Shown here: piece after piece, positions 57,074 through 63,042 of the stretch
Layout: every line of letters starts with the position of its first letter
How positions within the stretch are numbered: the stretch's first letter is position 1
Assembly: GCF_001598235.1 (NCBI RefSeq)
Contig: NZ_BCYO01000003.1
Location: 1 to 64,000, forward strand
From: Polaromonas jejuensis NBRC 106434
GTDB lineage: Bacteria; Pseudomonadota; Gammaproteobacteria; Burkholderiales; Burkholderiaceae_C
Direction: 5' to 3'
Length of the DNA stretch: 64,000 bases
Translations under genes and position numbers: made by a program
The notes under the pieces: model-generated
The model's input: only the letters and a program-made list of their open reading frames with translations
Told to the model about the DNA's origin: nothing
The model's database searches: none

Positions 57074-57147
57074 TGGAGCGGGTGAAGGGAATCGAACCCT
57101 CGTATGAAGCTTGGGAAGCTGCCGTTCTGCCATTGAACTACACCCGC
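57074..57147 (-). tRNA. tRNA-Gly(CCC)
   Basis: On the minus strand a full cloverleaf begins GCGGGTGTAGTTCAATGGC, has the loop TTCCCAA (anticodon CCC), the T arm GGTTCGATTCC and an encoded CCA end at 57074-57076. Acceptor stem GCGGGTG pairs with CACCCGC. It is the likely attachment site for the integrative element on its right. The 5' end of the tRNA, not the 3' end, faces the integrase gene. Confidence 0.95.
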
Positions 57148-57373: not shown

Positions 57374-58684
57374 ATGTTCTTTGATGCGCGATCGGCCAAG
57401 CTGTTAAAGCCGGGCCAGCACATGGTGATTGATGGCTGCCCAGGCCTGCGATTGACGGTATCCGCCACGCGCAAGACGTGGATCTATCGATATAAATCAC
57501 CGACTGATGGGCGGATGAAGCAGGTGGCCATCGGCCAGTGGCCGGCCGTGACGGTGCAGGCGGCAGCTGCGCAGTGGCAGGCGCTGCGTGAGCAGCGAGG
57601 TGAGGGCGCGGACCCCGCCGCTCAGCGCCGGACCGAGCGGCAAAGTGCACTCTCCGAAGTCATGGCGCCCAAAATCTTGACCGTGCGCCTCCTGGTTGAA
57701 GCCTTCATCACTGGGCACTTGAAGGCCCAGCGCAAGGCCGCAGGAGCGCGTGCCGGAGAGGTGGCGCTGCTGAGGCTGCTGGACGAGCAGCCGACCTTTG
57801 CGCAGATGCCGGCCGCGTCGGTCACGCGTTCGGTGGCGTTCGAGGTGCTTGACTCCAAAAAGGCTACGCCGACGGCGGCGGCAAAGCTACGCTCGCTGCT
57901 GGGCGCCGGCTGGGATTACGCGCTTGATGCTGGCCGGCTCGATGGCGAGGTGCCCAACTGGTGGCGCATGGTCATGAAGGGGCGTCTGAAGAGCAAGGGC
58001 AAGCTGGTCGGTGGGAAGCACCAGGGCCAGCAGCGCCGGGTGTTGCGTGCGGGCGAGATCGGCGAGCTGTTGGGGTGGCTGCCAAACATGCACGAGCTGG
58101 GAAGTGATGCCACGCAGATGTACCTGTGGACCTGCGCGCGCGGCGTCGAGATCTTTGGCATGCGCCCCGAGCATGTCGCCGAGGAGGCTGACGGCTGGTG
58201 GTGGACCGTGCCCAAGGGCCAGACCAAGAATGCCCGCTTCAGTGCCGGTGTTGATTTACGTGTGCCGCTGATTGGGCGGGCGCTGGAGATCGTGAGGCGC
58301 AGGTTGGATGCGGTCGGAGAGTCGGGCTGGCTGTTTGAGGATGCCAGGGGTGAGCAGTACGAGCAGAAGGACTTCTCGACCTACATTTATAGTTTGCAGC
58401 CCTATTCGGAGAAGGTGAGCCGGCGCGAGAGTGAGGGGCTGGTGATTCCGGTGGCCGGCTGGTCGCCGCATGATTTGCGCCGAACCGGCCGAACGCTGCT
58501 GGCTTCCCTGGGTTGCCGTGATGAGATCGCCGAGGCCATCATCGGGCACCTGCCCAAAGACATCGTCGGGATCTATAACGCCTACACCTACGACGCGGAG
58601 CGCCGGCACTGGCTGGGTGAGTTGTCGAGGCACCTGGAGGGCCTTGCGATGCCCGCTCAGGATGGCTTGCCGGCGCGGCCGTGA
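57374..58684 (+). CDS. tyrosine-type site-specific integrase, P4 family
   Basis: A 436-residue integrase. The N-terminal DUF4102-type domain (residues 1-90; GCPGLRLTVSATRKTWIYRY) is followed by a core-binding domain and the catalytic domain with Arg in ARGVEIFGMRPEHV, HDLRRTGRTLLASLG and the C-terminal nucleophile Tyr in IYNAYTYDAERR. P4-type integrases usually enter at tRNA genes, and a tRNA-Gly lies 226 bases away. Its last 28 bases overlap the end of the convergent AlpA-like gene (58657-58684). Confidence 0.92.
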   Translation: MFFDARSAKLLKPGQHMVIDGCPGLRLTVSATRKTWIYRYKSPTDGRMKQVAIGQWPAVTVQAAAAQWQALREQRGEGADPAAQRRTERQSALSEVMAPKILTVRLLVEAFITGHLKAQRKAAGARAGEVALLRLLDEQPTFAQMPAASVTRSVAFEVLDSKKATPTAAAKLRSLLGAGWDYALDAGRLDGEVPNWWRMVMKGRLKSKGKLVGGKHQGQQRRVLRAGEIGELLGWLPNMHELGSDATQMYLWTCARGVEIFGMRPEHVAEEADGWWWTVPKGQTKNARFSAGVDLRVPLIGRALEIVRRRLDAVGESGWLFEDARGEQYEQKDFSTYIYSLQPYSEKVSRRESEGLVIPVAGWSPHDLRRTGRTLLASLGCRDEIAEAIIGHLPKDIVGIYNAYTYDAERRHWLGELSRHLEGLAMPAQDGLPARP

Positions 58685-58914
58685 CCGCTGTTTGCCGGCG
58701 GCAGCAGGTCGGATACCGGGCGGCCCTTGCCCCAGGCCTCCAGTTCCTCCACCAGCCAGCCAGAGCGGCCATTGCTGATCTTCCGCGGGCGCGGTGCGTC
58801 GCCCTGTGCCACGAGCTTGTCCAGCATGCTCTCGGAGATCGACAAAAATGAGGCGGCCTGCTGGCGCGCCAGGTAGAGCGGCTTGAGCTGGATGATGGCG
58901 TTTTGCTCTTTCAT
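58657..58914 (-). CDS. AlpA-like helix-turn-helix protein
   Basis: An 85-residue protein with a MerR/AlpA-type helix-turn-helix: LYLARQQAASFLSISESMLD, then KISNGRSGWLVEELEAW. Proteins of this kind activate or direct excision by P4-type integrases. Its ATG overlaps the stop of the reverse transcriptase gene (ATGA, 58911-58914), so expression is tied to the DGR train, an unusual link of excision control to RT. Confidence 0.85.
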   Translation of the reverse strand: MKEQNAIIQLKPLYLARQQAASFLSISESMLDKLVAQGDAPRPRKISNGRSGWLVEELEAWGKGRPVSDLLPPANSGHGRAGKPS

Positions 58915-60044
58915 GGGGACTTCCTGAAAATCTTCGTCAAATCTGGTTTAAAGCTGTGGCCGCGCTTGCGCAGCACGTTCATCAGCAGCGCCTGGTCGTG
59001 GTGGCTGTGGCTGGCCTGGCGCAGCAGGCCCAGATAGCTGTTGCCTGCGCTGAAAACGTCCCTGGCGGGCATTTCCTGCAGGCGGCGCACGGCGGCGGCC
59101 ACGGTGCGCATGCGCGTGGTGCGGCGCCATGGCCTGATGACATGGCCTACAAAGTCAATGCCGCGGTCGACGGGCTGCAGGATGGTCTTGCGCGGGTTGA
59201 GCTGGGCGCCCAGGCGCTGCGGCACAAAGGTGTTGATGCTGGCCAGCGCGTCGTTGAGCCACTGCGTGGACTCGTGCAACAGGTAGAAGTCGTCCACGTA
59301 GCGGCCGTAATGCCGGGCGCGCAACTGGTGCCTGGCGAACTGGTCCAAGGCATTCAAATGCACATTCGCAAAAAACTGGCTGCTCAGGTTGCCGATGGGC
59401 AGGCCGGTGTCGGCGGGGGCATTGATCAGCCGTTTGTGCGCCGGCACGCGCGCCAGCAGGCGCGGATCGCCGCGCAGCTCGAAGTCGGTGCGCGGGTCGT
59501 GCATCAGCACGGTGTCAGTCAGCCAGCGCCAGTAGGGCTCTGTTACCTTGGTGTGCAGCTGGGCCTGCAGCACGCGCTTGTCGATAGCCACGAAGAAGTT
59601 GGCCAGATCCATTTTGAGGTAATAGGCGGCCCGGCTCCAGTTGTGCGTGATGCTGCGCACGTCATGCTCCAGGCGCTTGGCGGCGTAAAGGGTGCCGCGG
59701 CCCGGGATGCAGGCGGCGCTGCCGGCATCAAAGCTGGCGATGAAGCGGGGGGCGATGGCGTTGTACAGCAGGTGGTGCACGACGCGGTCGCGAAAGTCGG
59801 CCGCCCACACCTCGCGCGGCTTGGGGTGGGTGACCACAAAGCAGATGCTGCGGCCGGGCCGGTAGGTCTGGCTCAGCAGCTCGGCGCGCAGCGCGCAAAG
59901 GTTGCGCTCAGCGTTGGCTTCAAAGGCCTGGGCGCTGGCGCTTTGGCGCTTGTTGCGCCGGCAGTCCAGCCAGGCTTGCACCAGATCTGCCATGGTGAAG
60001 GCTGGCGCAGCTGGTTCGTCCGTGGTAAAGAGGTCAAAAGTCAT
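58911..60044 (-). CDS. DGR-type reverse transcriptase
   Basis: A 377-residue reverse transcriptase. Catalytic aspartates lie in KMDLANFF (D146) and YVDD (249-252). Motif 4 reads IGNLSSQ (217-223): the I/L/V-GxxxSQ form is the hallmark of DGR RTs, where group II introns have QGxxxSP. No maturase or endonuclease domain follows. It copies the template RNA with errors at adenine. The ATG at 60044 overlaps the stop of the PP-loop gene (ATGA); codons further upstream lie inside that gene. Confidence 0.95.
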   Translation of the reverse strand: MTFDLFTTDEPAAPAFTMADLVQAWLDCRRNKRQSASAQAFEANAERNLCALRAELLSQTYRPGRSICFVVTHPKPREVWAADFRDRVVHHLLYNAIAPRFIASFDAGSAACIPGRGTLYAAKRLEHDVRSITHNWSRAAYYLKMDLANFFVAIDKRVLQAQLHTKVTEPYWRWLTDTVLMHDPRTDFELRGDPRLLARVPAHKRLINAPADTGLPIGNLSSQFFANVHLNALDQFARHQLRARHYGRYVDDFYLLHESTQWLNDALASINTFVPQRLGAQLNPRKTILQPVDRGIDFVGHVIRPWRRTTRMRTVAAAVRRLQEMPARDVFSAGNSYLGLLRQASHSHHDQALLMNVLRKRGHSFKPDLTKIFRKSP

Positions 60045-61123
60045 TCGCATAGCGCGTAAGACGAACTGCAGGCGTTCGTCTCTTCCGCGTCGTTGAGGAG
60101 GCTGTATTGCTTCCCGCCTCGGGTCGTTTTCGCCCACTGGATACGGGTCCAGACGTTCAGCTCATTAAAAATGATTCGCCTGTCGCTCACCTTGGCGATG
60201 TCGGCCGGCGCGTCTGCAAAGAAGGTGCTGAAACCGCGCTTGCTGGCCATGCCCACACGCACCTCCCAATCACCGATACGCCCGATATGTGCAGGAAAGC
60301 GGGCGGCCCACTGCCGCAGCTCTTCCTTGCTCTGGTTGATGCAGAAACATCCGACCCGCCCGAAGCCCATGGAATAAAGCGGGTTGGCCAGAATCTCATG
60401 CAGAGTGGCAAACTCAATGGCTTGCATCGCCGTCCAGTCCACGATAGGTCGGTAAATGTAGAGGCGCGGCGCCACGCGCTCAAAGCTCTTTGCATCGCGG
60501 CGATTGAATGACTCGTCGCGGCGCACGCCCTGCCAGCTGACTACGGTGTGGCCTTGGTCCATCAGCTCCATTTGGAACTCGACAGCCATGTTTCGCTTCA
60601 GCTCTTCGGTGCAGAACTGGGCTTTGCGGCTCGGAAACCGGCCTTTCCACAGACACAGGTCGAGGAAAACGTTGCCGGTGGGGTGCAGCACTGACAGCGC
60701 CCGGCGCTTGGCCTTGTTGGTCCAGCGCACCTTGCGACCTCCGCCGACCTTGACGGTCTTCTGAACTGTCCTACCTTTTTTGTCGAGCACGACTGCACCG
60801 CGTCCGTCACGCTTTGGCACTGGCGTCACTCCGTCAGCCTCAAACACAGGCTTGGTGTCGTACTGGCGGCGGGTGCGTTGGTCGTTGGCCACAAACTTGC
60901 GCTTGCCTGCAATCTCGTCGATGAAGCTGGCGCGCAGGCGGGTGATCTTGAGGCCCAGCCGGCGTTCAAGGTATCCGAGATACTCATAGGTCAGCTCGTG
61001 CTCGTTGCCGGTGTCGCAGAAGATGGCGATGATGTTGGCCACGCCAAAGCGCATGATGGCGATCAGCAGCGTTGCGAGGCTGTCCTTGCCGCCGCTGACC
61101 GAAACGACGTGTTTTACTGTCAT
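60041..61123 (-). CDS. PP-loop ATPase, phosphoadenosine-phosphosulfate (PAPS) reductase-like
   Basis: A 360-residue protein with the PP-loop SVSGGKDSLATLLI at residues 8-21 and a FCDTGNEHELTYEYL strand, as in PAPS reductases, DndC and related AMP-forming sulfurtransferases. Several conserved cysteines remain (FCTEELK, GCFCINQSK, and three near the C-terminus), which may bind Fe-S. A central basic insertion (residues 110-150) is unusual. It lies between the template repeat and the RT gene, with ATGA overlaps on both sides. Phage genomes often carry this family with unknown function; what it does inside a DGR is not known. Confidence 0.85.
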   Translation of the reverse strand: MTVKHVVSVSGGKDSLATLLIAIMRFGVANIIAIFCDTGNEHELTYEYLGYLERRLGLKITRLRASFIDEIAGKRKFVANDQRTRRQYDTKPVFEADGVTPVPKRDGRGAVVLDKKGRTVQKTVKVGGGRKVRWTNKAKRRALSVLHPTGNVFLDLCLWKGRFPSRKAQFCTEELKRNMAVEFQMELMDQGHTVVSWQGVRRDESFNRRDAKSFERVAPRLYIYRPIVDWTAMQAIEFATLHEILANPLYSMGFGRVGCFCINQSKEELRQWAARFPAHIGRIGDWEVRVGMASKRGFSTFFADAPADIAKVSDRRIIFNELNVWTRIQWAKTTRGGKQYSLLNDAEETNACSSSYALCE

Positions 61124-61437
61124 ATAGGTGCCCCCGCTCGGAGGGCGATTGAATCCGCGGAAAGCACGAACCCTGTGCTCGTTGTCCTTGTTGTTCCAGT
61201 TGCTGTTGCCGTTCTCGAAGTCCTGGACGAAGGCGTTGTTGCGCGAGTTCTGCGTGTTGCCGAGCTATCTACGTCGCCGGGCCGAAGGTTTGCACCGATC
61301 AGCCCGGTAACTGCGCCGGACCATAGCGCGAGCTGTTCGGGCTCGCCGGTATCCGTGGTGCGCATGGCGGTGGGCTGTGGGCCCAGCGGCTCGACCGGAT
61401 TCAATAAACGCACGGGCATGATGGCCTTGACCGTCAT
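61120..61437 (-). CDS. small ORF of 105 residues that contains the DGR template repeat
   Basis: Start ATG 61437 overlaps the avd stop (ATGA) and stop TGA at 61120-61122 overlaps the PP-loop gene start (ATGA). The first half (MTVKAIMPVRLLNPVEPLGP) looks like ordinary protein with no family I know. The second half reads the template repeat in a different frame from that of the target genes, giving Thr/Arg/Ser-rich low complexity. It may be a real short protein, or a reading frame kept only so ribosomes can pass from avd to the PP-loop and RT genes. Not certain to be a gene. Confidence 0.45.
   Translation of the reverse strand: MTVKAIMPVRLLNPVEPLGPQPTAMRTTDTGEPEQLALWSGAVTGLIGANLRPGDVDSSATRRTRATTPSSRTSRTATATGTTRTTSTGFVLSADSIALRAGAPI
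61156..61260 (-). repeat. DGR template repeat (TR)
   Basis: About 104 bases on the minus strand, rich in AAC codons in the target frame. Read in that frame it gives NTQNSRNNAFVQDFENGNSN and then WNNKDNEHRVRAFR, with ten Asn (AAC) codons. It matches the ends of both target genes, with every mismatch at a template adenine: 14 differences to VR1 and 12 to VR2. The final GAGCACAGGGTTCGTGCTTTC part is identical in all three, as expected for the initiation-of-homing end. A TAG lies immediately before it in the target frame, so the TR is not itself part of a target gene. Confidence 0.95.
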
Positions 61438-61808
61438 GCAGCAGGCGCTGCGGAAAGGGTGGCGATGGTCTGTTTGCGCCAGCCGCCGGCCATGGAACCG
61501 ACGGTGTCGAGCAGCTCGACCGACTGGCCCCACAACTTTGGGGAGATCAGCCGCTTGTCGTGGCTGACGCGCAGCATCGCCGTGGTGGCGCGCAGGTGCT
61601 GCAACAGCAGGTCGAGCTGCTGCACCCTGCCGTCGCCGCGCGAAGCATTTGCCATGGCCATGGCTTCCAGCATTTCCACGCACAGGCCGTGGATCTTCTC
61701 GCCCAGGCTGCGCTTGAAAATGCGCGGCATCTGGGTTTGCACGTCAAGCGCCAGCGACAGCAGGTCGCAGCCGTGTTTGTAAATGGGAAGTTCGGAGTAA
61801 AGGGCCAT
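61434..61808 (-). CDS. avd: DGR accessory variability determinant (Avd), four-helix bundle
   Basis: A 124-residue helical protein beginning MALYSELPIYKHGCDLLSLA, with FKRSLGEKIHGLCVEMLEAM and LRVSHDKRLISPKLWGQSVEL: the bAvd-type four-helix-bundle pattern (about 124-128 residues). In studied DGRs Avd pentamers bind RT and the template RNA and are needed for cDNA synthesis. It sits upstream of the TR, the expected order. A hairpin followed by a T-run lies 22 bases before its start, and no clear ribosome site is seen. Confidence 0.9.
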   Translation of the reverse strand: MALYSELPIYKHGCDLLSLALDVQTQMPRIFKRSLGEKIHGLCVEMLEAMAMANASRGDGRVQQLDLLLQHLRATTAMLRVSHDKRLISPKLWGQSVELLDTVGSMAGGWRKQTIATLSAAPAA

Positions 61809-61829
61809 GGTCGAAAAAAAAATTCGCGA

Positions 61830-61845
61830 ACCGGCTTGCGCCGGT
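61830..61845 (-). other. hairpin downstream of VR1 (DGR hairpin or terminator)
   Basis: ACCGGC and GCCGGT (6-bp stem, loop GCAA on the minus strand) lie 46 bases past VR1, then seven bases and a run of nine T. The matching hairpin after VR2 has the same spacing to a T-run. Studied DGRs carry a hairpin shortly after the VR that promotes target recognition; it could equally end transcripts. Confidence 0.6.
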
Positions 61846-61862
61846 GGGTGGACAAAAAGGGG

Positions 61863-62378
61863 TTAAGTGTTCAAGGCGTCAAGTGGAATCGCGCGGAAAG
61901 CACGAACCCTGTGCTCGCCGCCCTTGCCGTCCCAGCCGCTGCTGCCGTCCTCGAAGTCCTGGACGAAGGCGTCGTCGCGCGAGTCCTGCGTGCTGGTCCA
62001 ATACCAGTCGTCTTTGCTGAAAAGCTCGGGCACGTTGGCAGCGGCCGAGTTGAGCTCGCCCAGGCTGGGCAGGTACCAGTCGTTGTGACCGTCGATGGTG
62101 AGCTCGCGCACCTTCAGGGCTGCAGGGCAGCTGGCCAGTGCCATGGCTTCGGTGTTGGCCTTGCCATCGGTGCGGCTGCTGGTGCCTGGCACGTCTTTGC
62201 CGTACTCGCCCCAGGCGATGTCTTCGAATTCGCCGACGGCCGCGTCAGACACCAGCAGCGCAAAGGGCGGCTGCTCGATGCCGTCGACGGTGGGGCCGCG
62301 CAGGATCGCGGCCAGCATGCCGCCTTGGCCAGCGATGACGGCGCCGAATGCCGGCAGGGTGATGGGGTGTACTTTCAT
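61863..62378 (-). CDS. DGR target protein 1, DUF1566/C-type-lectin-like
   Basis: A 171-residue protein. WYLPSLGELN (101-110) and WYWTSTQ (125-131) are the conserved core of DUF1566-type domains, a C-type-lectin-like fold. VR1 covers residues about 128-162; all ten Asn codons of the template are changed, plus one Asp (D153 to G), and the rest of that stretch is identical. No signal peptide is seen. GAGGAG precedes the ATG at 62378, while a further upstream ATG lies within the VR2 gene's end region. It should be a ligand-binding protein whose binding surface is diversified. Confidence 0.9.
   Translation of the reverse strand: MKVHPITLPAFGAVIAGQGGMLAAILRGPTVDGIEQPPFALLVSDAAVGEFEDIAWGEYGKDVPGTSSRTDGKANTEAMALASCPAALKVRELTIDGHNDWYLPSLGELNSAAANVPELFSKDDWYWTSTQDSRDDAFVQDFEDGSSGWDGKGGEHRVRAFRAIPLDALNT
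61892..61995 (-). repeat. DGR variable repeat VR1
   Basis: Aligned with the TR over 104 bases, it differs at 14 places, all TR adenines, and all of them read G here. Eleven codons change (Asn to Asp, Ser or Gly, and one Asp to Gly). Confidence 0.95.
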
Positions 62379-62412
62379 GGGTAGCTCCTCGGGGTGGTTA
62401 AAAAAATCGTGG

Positions 62413-62430
62413 ACCGGCGCCAGCGCCGGT
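62413..62430 (-). other. hairpin downstream of VR2 (DGR hairpin or terminator)
   Basis: ACCGGCGC and GCGCCGGT with a two-base loop (or a 6-bp stem with a longer loop) lie 36 bases past VR2, followed after six bases by a run of seven T. Same layout as the hairpin after VR1. Confidence 0.6.
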
Positions 62431-62445
62431 GAAGTGTTCAAGGGG

Positions 62446-63042
62446 TCAAGCGCTCAAGTGAACCCAGCGGAAAGCACGAACCCTGTGCTCGTTGTCCTTG
62501 AGGTCCCAGTAGCTGTAGCCGCCCTCGAAGTCCTGGACGAAGGCGCCGTCGCGCGAGGTCTGCGTGCTGCTCCAATACCAGCCGCTTTTCTGGAAAAGCT
62601 GCGGTGCGCAGATGTGCGCCATCACCAGGTCCAGGCGGCTTGGCAGGTAAAAGTCGGTGTGGCCGTCGGCCGTGTAGGCGTCTGCCCATTTGGCGGCTGG
62701 GTGGTCCTGGCCGGTGGCGAGCAGGGCGGCGGTGTTGGCTGGGCCATCGAGCTGACTGCGGGCGCCTGGCACGTCCAGTGATGGGCCGAACTCCAGGCTC
62801 TCGACTTCATGCTCGCTCGCGATCAGGTGACGGGCGGGCACGCCCAACAACTCCGGCAGGGTGCAGATGTAGCGGCCGCCCTGGCCGGGCCAGTAGTCGC
62901 CGTGGGCGGGTGGGGGCAGGGTGCTGCTCGGTGCGGCTGGCTCTGCTGCTTGGCGAAAGACCGCGGGGAAATCAAGGCCCTGTGGGGCCGCGTCTGATGG
63001 CAGGCTCAGGTGGATGGTGGCGTTGGTGATATGCAATTGCAT
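62446..63042 (-). CDS. DGR target protein 2, DUF1566/C-type-lectin-like
   Basis: A 198-residue protein with the DUF1566-type segments FYLPSRLDLVMAHI and WYWSSTQTSRDGAFVQD near the C-terminus. VR2 covers residues about 158-192; nine of ten template Asn codons are changed, to Ser, Thr, Asp, Gly, Gly, Tyr, Tyr, Asp and Leu, and one stays Asn. The N-terminal half, with a Pro-rich stretch, differs from target 1, so the two genes share only the diversified end. ATG 63042 has GGAG in front. It lies 26 bases after the 159-residue gene. Confidence 0.9.
   Translation of the reverse strand: MQLHITNATIHLSLPSDAAPQGLDFPAVFRQAAEPAAPSSTLPPPAHGDYWPGQGGRYICTLPELLGVPARHLIASEHEVESLEFGPSLDVPGARSQLDGPANTAALLATGQDHPAAKWADAYTADGHTDFYLPSRLDLVMAHICAPQLFQKSGWYWSSTQTSRDGAFVQDFEGGYSYWDLKDNEHRVRAFRWVHLSA
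62467..62570 (-). repeat. DGR variable repeat VR2
   Basis: Aligned with the TR over 104 bases, it has 12 differences, all at TR adenines: seven to G, three to T and two to C. No template G, C or T is changed. Confidence 0.95.

Follow-up and report, generated by a model that had tools for sequence, protein, structure and literature searches.

An adenine-limited template and three variable repeats identify a diversity-generating retroelement

We analyzed a 64,000-nucleotide (nt) stretch of Polaromonas jejuensis NBRC 106434 (the window; positions 1 to 64,000 of contig NZ_BCYO01000003.1, here C3), close to one end of which lies a diversity-generating retroelement (DGR). In order of transcription on the minus strand, the cassette comprises target gene 2 (62446-63042) with variable repeat 2 (VR2, 62467-62569), target gene 1 (61863-62378) with VR1 (61893-61995), avd (61434-61808), an RNA of the Rfam family RT-15 (RF03018; 61253-61450), the template repeat (TR, 61157-61259), a PAPS-reductase-like gene of the PP-loop type (60041-61123), the reverse transcriptase gene (RT, 58911-60062) and an AlpA-like gene for a small regulator or excisionase (58657-58914; Phage_AlpA at 18.3 bits, under the cut-off of 21). 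The RT-15 RNA extends into both its neighbors, sharing the final bases of avd and the initial bases of the TR, and the start of the RT overlaps the end of the PAPS-like gene.

The TR and VRs align over a common stretch of 103 bases, 32 of which are adenines in the TR. A repeat search located the TR, VR1 and VR2 where an earlier note on this DNA had placed them, and our recount agreed with its 14 and 12 mismatches, all 26 on template adenines: each of the 14 internal mismatches of VR1 is an A to G change, and the 12 of VR2 comprise seven changes to G, three to T and two to C. One G to C difference at the first base of the VR1 comparison (61260) falls outside the repeat as bounded here. Rather than the two target genes of that note we found three, since the TR sequence used as a query against the host draft genome (79 contigs) returned four copies at E ≤ 0.001, namely the TR, VR1, VR2 and a third VR at C3:70472-70579, 6.5 kb past the end of the window, in which 16 of 16 mismatches fall on template adenines. 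Pooled over the common 103 bases, the three VRs carry 42 mismatches at 96 adenine sites and none at 213 non-adenine sites, so that the equal change at G, C and T that would have told against a DGR is not seen. Within AAC codons 40 of 60 adenine sites are changed, compared to 2 of 36 elsewhere. The chance that all 42 mismatches would fall on adenines (32 of 103 bases) is ~10^-21, and this pattern, together with the RT and Avd, refutes the explanation that these are chance or ordinary repeats, to which we assign a negligible probability.

The RT and Avd lie on the same strand, as had been noted from the motifs IGNLSSQ and YVDD, both of which are present in the RT translation. The RT matched RVT_1 (46 bits) and the phrog_1423 reverse transcriptase family (4e-107), and its best match among solved structures was PDB 8ub7, "Reverse transcriptase" (8e-37), which we take to be the Bordetella DGR complex; none of the NCBIfam RT models reached its cut-off, the best being a group II intron RT model (75 of 300 bits). 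As a query, the RT matched 107 phage records, BPP-1 among them. Avd matched Pfam bAvd (44.2 bits, cut-off 40) and phrog_3206, "Avd protein of DGR", and fell below the cut-off of NCBIfam DivGenRetAVD (49.1 of 80 bits).

The description of the targets as DUF1566-type proteins also held. Target 1 matched Lcl_C in a longer open reading frame (ORF; 37.3 bits, cut-off 34.9), and its AlphaFold2 model, built from an alignment of target 2 and 18 rows from relatives, had a mean pLDDT of 93.7. In Foldseek, this model matched the Lcl C-terminal domain 8q4e (E 4.4e-5, TM 0.53/0.66) and viral proteins down to E 2.7e-11, several of them named DUF1566 (best 5e-9), while animal C-type lectins appeared at E 0.15 or worse. 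The VR of target 1 thus lies in a C-terminal C-type-lectin-like domain. Target 2 matched Lcl_C below the same cut-off (23.9 bits) and has phrog_4245 in common with target 1, and the third VR is held by a 188-amino-acid ORF of the phrog_4245 family. The three targets are small (171, 198 and 188 amino acids) and are encoded at a distance from the tail module; we infer that their role is to bind a variable ligand.

Taken together, the adenine-limited TR/VR pattern, the homologous RT and Avd, and the C-type-lectin-like VR domain confirm that the locus is a DGR. It goes beyond a routine DGR in having a structured RNA 5' of the TR and a PAPS-reductase-like gene that separates the TR from the RT, neither of which the earlier note remarked on.

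A conserved structured RNA lies 5' of the template repeat

We collected relatives of the RT from phage records, IMG/VR (best 80 matches per list), GTDB genomes and 299 genomes of the host's family. Ten of the 299 family genomes, the host's own included, had an RT match, and the nine best phage records encode RTs 59-64% identical to that of the window. A TR/VR pair was found on the RT's strand in 131 of the first 140 loci and in 258 of 279 RT loci overall; the 253 loci that passed our filters gave 210 records with different RT sequences (individual loci are given L numbers). The median distance between avd and TR is 171 nt (208 of 210 records), while that from the TR to the aligned RT start is 16 nt.

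In the window, RT-15 spans the full model (1-192 of 192) at 184.7 bits (gathering threshold 82, E 4.5e-46). An Rfam scan of 15 loci found RT-15 above the gathering threshold in seven close members, among them six in which a gene is inserted between TR and RT, and in L135 (91.8 bits), and not in the seven distant ones. Six of the 10 RT-positive genomes had RT-15 over the cut-off, as did one of 369 genomes of the class (the window's own), a count of little weight, as it was taken over the 369 regardless of whether they carry this RT. The literature that we searched, from which Weinberg 2017 and Wu 2018 were absent, contained no mention of RT-15 or RF03018.

Comparative folding covered 98 of 110 tree representatives, all but ten distant or atypical rows (L020-L023, L131, L132, L135, L137, L189, L311) and two minus-strand rows. 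RNAalifold gave -49.1 kcal/mol for the region 5' of the TR, compared to -0.6 with shuffled columns, and 0 for both the avd coding sequence and the TR itself. Of the 44 pairs in the 5' fold, 31 showed double changes, with 96.3% of cells paired; in a slid-partner control 26-43% were paired and 10-13 pairs showed double changes. Within 170 nt on the 3' side of the TR, RNAalifold found no consensus fold in the 91 insert-free loci (-0.6). A short hairpin on that side (61130-61146, minus strand) is present in the window's clade only, and was rejected as a family-wide feature (mean z of 0.11 over 203 loci).

The 5' arrangement may extend beyond RT-15, because L020-L023 have 131-221 nt between avd and TR with no Rfam match; these loci and Bacteroides phage F2 (L365, 2725-2995) perhaps carry unnamed 5' DGR RNAs. 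L189 and L311, with avd-TR gaps of 44 and 55 nt, may lack RT-15.

RT-15 shares bases with the end of avd and, in insert-free loci, is located in the RT leader. It could therefore instead be an expression switch, that is, a cis-regulator of the RT or the operon (an attenuator or translation switch), with the RT-binding module in some other place, such as within the RT coding sequence. However, RT-15 remains beside the TR, and 0.8-1.1 kb from the RT, in all six loci where an insert separates the two, covariation ties its free segment to the 3' end of the TR (below), and the 3' side of the TR has no conserved fold in the insert-free loci. We therefore consider a purely regulatory RT-15 unlikely. 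That RT-15 stays with the TR where an insert intervenes is, judging from these sequences, what we regard as the strongest argument that RT-15 and the TR together would form the template RNA.

A predicted long-range helix joins RT-15 to the 3' end of the template repeat

A segment that is unpaired in the Rfam RT-15 model (ATTGAATCCG, 61405-61396, minus strand) is predicted to pair with CGGATTCAAT at the TR 3' end (61157-61148, minus strand). A scan of 5-bp helices that could link the 5' module to the 3' end of the TR ranked the register of TTGAATCTG and CAGATTCAA first, both by pairing and by covariation. The best helices of the loci had a mean score of 6.74, compared to 5.92 with swapped partners (maximum 6.15 of 40) and 5.39 with shuffled letters; the helix is at least 7 bp long in 54 of the 98 loci and only 5 bp in 29, and in L009, L012, L130 and L074 the best helix was found in another register. 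At extension position 2, 94% of 159 loci form a pair (GC 71, TA 51, CG 12, AT 9), compared to 43% with swapped partners (maximum 54% of 500), and the pair type at this position changes at least 16 times on the tree (77 rows). Core position 4 is TA in 151 of the 159 loci, CG in seven and other in one.

The helix appears in the minimum-energy fold of the window's RNA. Among the insert loci it measures 10 bp in the window, 10 in L025, 9 in L222 and 8 in L121; in L073 and L081 a script found 7 bp (TCATTTT/AAAATGG), and a neighboring core, ATCTG/CAGAT, was read by eye. The VRs lack the helix partner, with a mean identity to the TR of 37% over 8 nt (331 VRs).

Different genes have entered the junction between template repeat and reverse transcriptase

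The TR adjoins the RT in 203 of the 210 records; six have a gap of more than 700 nt and one (L217) a gap of 316 nt. Four kinds of gene lie between TR and RT in these six loci. The window (record L024) and L073 carry a PAPS-like gene, which in the window matched PAPS_reduct at 79.4 bits (cut-off 22.5) and phrog_424, and L025 carries a short PAPS-like gene. In L081 the insert is a queuine tRNA-ribosyltransferase-like gene (phrog_887) preceded by a small ORF, in L121 an N6/N4 DNA methylase and in L222 a piece of a C5 DNA methylase, the last two each spanning two or more frames. The names of the L025 and L081 inserts come from PHROGs, Pfam and NCBIfam having yielded none. The RT frame of the window starts within the end of the PAPS-like gene, and insert and RT overlap likewise in L025, L081, L121 and two further loci, L345 and L335, but not in L073.

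L345 and L335 were brought in by the PAPS query. L345 has the order TR, PAPS-like gene, RT, with PAPS homology starting ~146 nt after the TR (a call by tblastn only), while the contig of L335 has the PAPS-like gene before the RT and ends before any TR. Their RTs are ~30% identical to that of the window, and the Rfam scan found RT-15 in neither; a scan of L345 2200-5000 gave no Rfam match. The two (L345 3735-5922, L335 33-2215) represent a distant DGR lineage with a PAPS-like gene overlapping the RT start. With both included, the insert label requires six changes on the RT tree (quick method).

PAPS-like genes recur at this junction: the window, L073, L025 and the distant L345 each have one separating TR from RT, and in L335 one directly precedes the RT. 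The PAPS-like gene could thus be an accessory factor of the DGR. Yet the inserts vary in kind, extending to the ribosyltransferase-like gene and both types of DNA methylase, they differ between L073 and L081 despite RTs that are 97% alike, and 203 of 210 records have none, so that we find an accessory role improbable and favor the reading of the PAPS-like gene as a passenger, or cargo, that is not part of the DGR. The L073 and L081 pair is in itself a case of gene exchange at one place.

Four of the six insert loci (the exceptions being L222 and L025) have over 1 kb between the TR and the RT ORF, the distance in the window being 1.02-1.09 kb from the RT start. The survey of Roux et al. 2021, as its methods are given in PMC8144416, requires the repeat to lie no more than 1 kb from the RT, and a survey with this limit would miss the DGR of the window.

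Relatives of the DGR vary almost only at template adenines

VRs were compared site by site for pairs of loci with RT genes of 90% identity or more. The Pseudomonas aeruginosa phage Haboob (L012) and an IMG/VR contig (L240) are identical in RT, TR and 400 flanking bases, while their VRs differ at 38 of 66 adenine sites and 1 of 137 non-adenine sites; the two, of which Haboob is a sequenced phage, form a ready natural pair for the study of DGR activity. Similar differences were found between L079 and L096 (35 of 63 adenine and 0 of 138 non-adenine sites; flanks 2 of 400), L059 and L061 (14 of 52 and 1 of 126), and L193 and L195 (14 of 95 and 0 of 232), the least clean pair being L100 and L143 (26 of 60 and 6 of 144). 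Between L073 and L081, both of which carry an insert, 16 of 37 adenine and 0 of 64 non-adenine VR sites differ, as do 16 of 200 flank sites. Many pairs at or above 90% RT identity showed no VR difference, some of them being two copies of one contig. As the earlier note had anticipated for an active DGR, near-identical phages thus differ in their VRs almost only at template adenines, and these sequence comparisons show the DGRs of the relatives to be active.

A proposed template RNA clamped at the 3' end of the template repeat

These observations lead us to propose, with reasonable confidence, a DGR lineage whose template RNA has its structured part on the 5' side of the TR, clamped to the TR 3' end, leaving the junction beyond it open to passengers. 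The left operon would yield one transcript for Avd, the RT and an RNA of RT-15 followed by the TR. RT-15 would fold, and the pairing of its free segment (61405-61396) with 61157-61148 would make the TR a loop closed on the RT-15 body. The RT and Avd would bind that body, and complementary DNA (cDNA) would start at the closed TR 3' end. Adenines would be miscopied, the cDNA would overwrite VR1, VR2 and the third VR at 70.5 kb, and ten AAC codons would be altered in three small C-type-lectin-like proteins. Since the 3' side of the TR would need no structure, the TR-RT junction could accept passenger genes, here the PAPS-reductase-like gene overlapping the RT start.

Several points weigh against this proposal. 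The core motif is absent from the searched place in 44 of 203 records, and extension positions 1, 3, 4 and 5 pair at best marginally more often than with swapped partners. Supported independent contrasts at position 2 are few: three G/C contrasts, which nearly always agree, and five T/A contrasts, of which on average 2.2 agree, 0.5 oppose and 2.2 show no change; both sign tests fall short of significance. The whole 346-nt RNA of the window is only 1.3 standard deviations more stable than its shuffles. Binding of RT and Avd to RT-15 and priming at the closing helix are steps that we infer. As for this copy, the matches listed in the phage, host-family, IMG/VR and GTDB searches include no second strain of the window's phage, and its clean VRs are what speaks for its activity.

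The lack of such a comparison strain and the unusual TR-RT distance would also fit a DGR that was broken by the insert, leaving the copy in the window dead. However, none of the 213 non-adenine sites in its three VRs has changed, and the insert-bearing L073 and L081 differ in their VRs at adenines only, a difference that may in part predate the inserts. A dead copy therefore seems improbable to us, and the clamped template RNA remains our preferred reading.

The DGR lies in a tailed, probably siphovirus-like prophage

The first 24 nt at the 5' end of tRNA-Gly(ccc), on the minus strand, form the attL core (57124-57147; ARAGORN and repeat search), next to which lies a plus-strand tyrosine integrase gene (57374-58684; Arm-DNA-bind_3 51.7 bits, Phage_integrase 27.0 of 27.1 bits, phrog_1 integrase). 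An exact repeat of these 24 nt, attR, was found at C3:97891-97914, and the element extends to about 97.9 kb. Our annotation of the prophage, a PHROGs scan of 30 proteins, placed a regulator-like gene at 71.8-72.5 kb, a replication initiation protein gene at 74.6-75.5 kb, terminase, portal, major head, tape measure, distal tail and tail-fiber genes at 76-93 kb, and a major tail protein gene at 84.5-85.2 kb. The element thus carries the gene set of a tailed temperate phage (integrase, head, tail and packaging genes) flanked by att repeats. The same RT, at 100% identity, is found in an IMG/VR record of 39,808 bases (39.8 kb; L024, which is one contig with L282). From its gene content we read the element as a tailed, siphovirus-like prophage of ~40.8 kb in tRNA-Gly, with the DGR in the integrase-side operon. 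The earlier note was right that the DGR adjoins an integrase and tRNA-Gly but not in setting these against phage tail genes, which lie in the same ~40.8 kb element; an integrative element without tail genes is ruled out by the structural genes at 76-93 kb.

With the prophage inserted at the 5' end of tRNA-Gly (57074-57147), the sequence formerly upstream of the tRNA should now be displaced by ~41 kb. A 615-amino-acid DNA methyltransferase (63733-65580) and a deoxynucleoside monophosphate kinase (C3:66685-67392) adjoin the DGR; together with the PAPS-like gene, they may constitute a set for DNA modification.

Comparison with known DGRs

How a DGR RNA recruits the RT and where its cDNA starts are best worked out for BPP-1. 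Its target, Mtd, has a C-type-lectin fold, and bbp7 is presumably its avd. Like the window, BPP-1 has avd, TR and RT in the same order on one strand, and VR change is limited to adenines in both. Unlike the window, where an RNA lies 5' and a gene 3' of the TR, BPP-1 is annotated with an avd-TR gap of 0 and a structured TR-RT spacer of 144 nt; Rfam Phage_DGR (RF03022) matched its record (L362) at 2822-2954, between the TR (2684-2817) and brt (2962). The DGR of the window has no such spacer, and its targets differ from that of BPP-1 in being small proteins encoded away from the tail genes. The BPP-1 spacer is described as recruiting bRT-Avd and priming cDNA synthesis (PMC12875486).

The hairpin that follows the BPP-1-type VR is described as a GC-rich stem of 7-10 bp with a 4-nt GRNA loop (PMC3240598). 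In the 70 nt after the VR, a 7-bp GC-rich stem capped by a GRNA loop follows none of 429 family VRs, whereas such a stem with another 4-nt loop follows 33 of 429 VRs compared to 5 of 429 random windows; the family may thus have a weaker or different post-VR signal. In the window, VR1 is followed by a 6-bp stem with the loop GCAA, VR2 by a 7-bp stem with the loop CTGG, and VR3 by none.

Closer to the window are the cultured phages Magia, Cruim01, QDWS and Haboob, whose RTs are 62-64% identical over 88-90% of the query. Their DGRs have the order avd, gap, TR, RT and small targets, and lie among integration, recombination or regulatory genes, so that a location away from tail genes, which the earlier note had thought possibly undescribed, is found in these phages too; the DGR of Magia is already published (PMC7883833). 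The Magia record annotates a lectin fold in a target and has, like the DGR studied here, three VRs, one of them ~6 kb from the next, and that of Cruim01 marks a misc_RNA "RT-15" before the TR. In contrast with the window, none of the four has a gene between TR and RT. The same difference separates the window from a prophage DGR of Polaromonas sp. OV174 (L026/L104), which has a 90% identical RT, RT-15 and a 10-bp long-range helix like that of the window, and no PAPS-like gene between TR and RT.

Both RT-15 and Phage_DGR flank a DGR TR, the former on its 5' side and the latter, in BPP-1, on its 3' side. BalMu-1 has RT-14 3' of the TR (70.4 bits) and VP58.5 a sub-threshold RT-14 in the same position (37.4 of 48.1 bits), and therefore these RNAs differ from RT-15 in place. 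Neither Bacteroides phage F2, with a 128-nt avd-TR gap and its TR near the RT, nor FP_Lagaffe, with a short avd-TR gap, gave an Rfam match.

On balance, we lean toward the view that DGR template RNAs come in two mirror-image forms, with the recruiting module either 3' of the TR, as in BPP-1, or 5' of it, as RT-15 clamped by a helix that VRs cannot form; the 3' side would then be free for phage genes, several of which resemble DNA methylases or base-modification genes. If this is true, it is the helix that tells template from target. With at least about 200 distinct RTs whose module lies on the other side from that of BPP-1, and with natural inserts among them, both the minimal RNA and the rule that separates TR from VR become directly testable.

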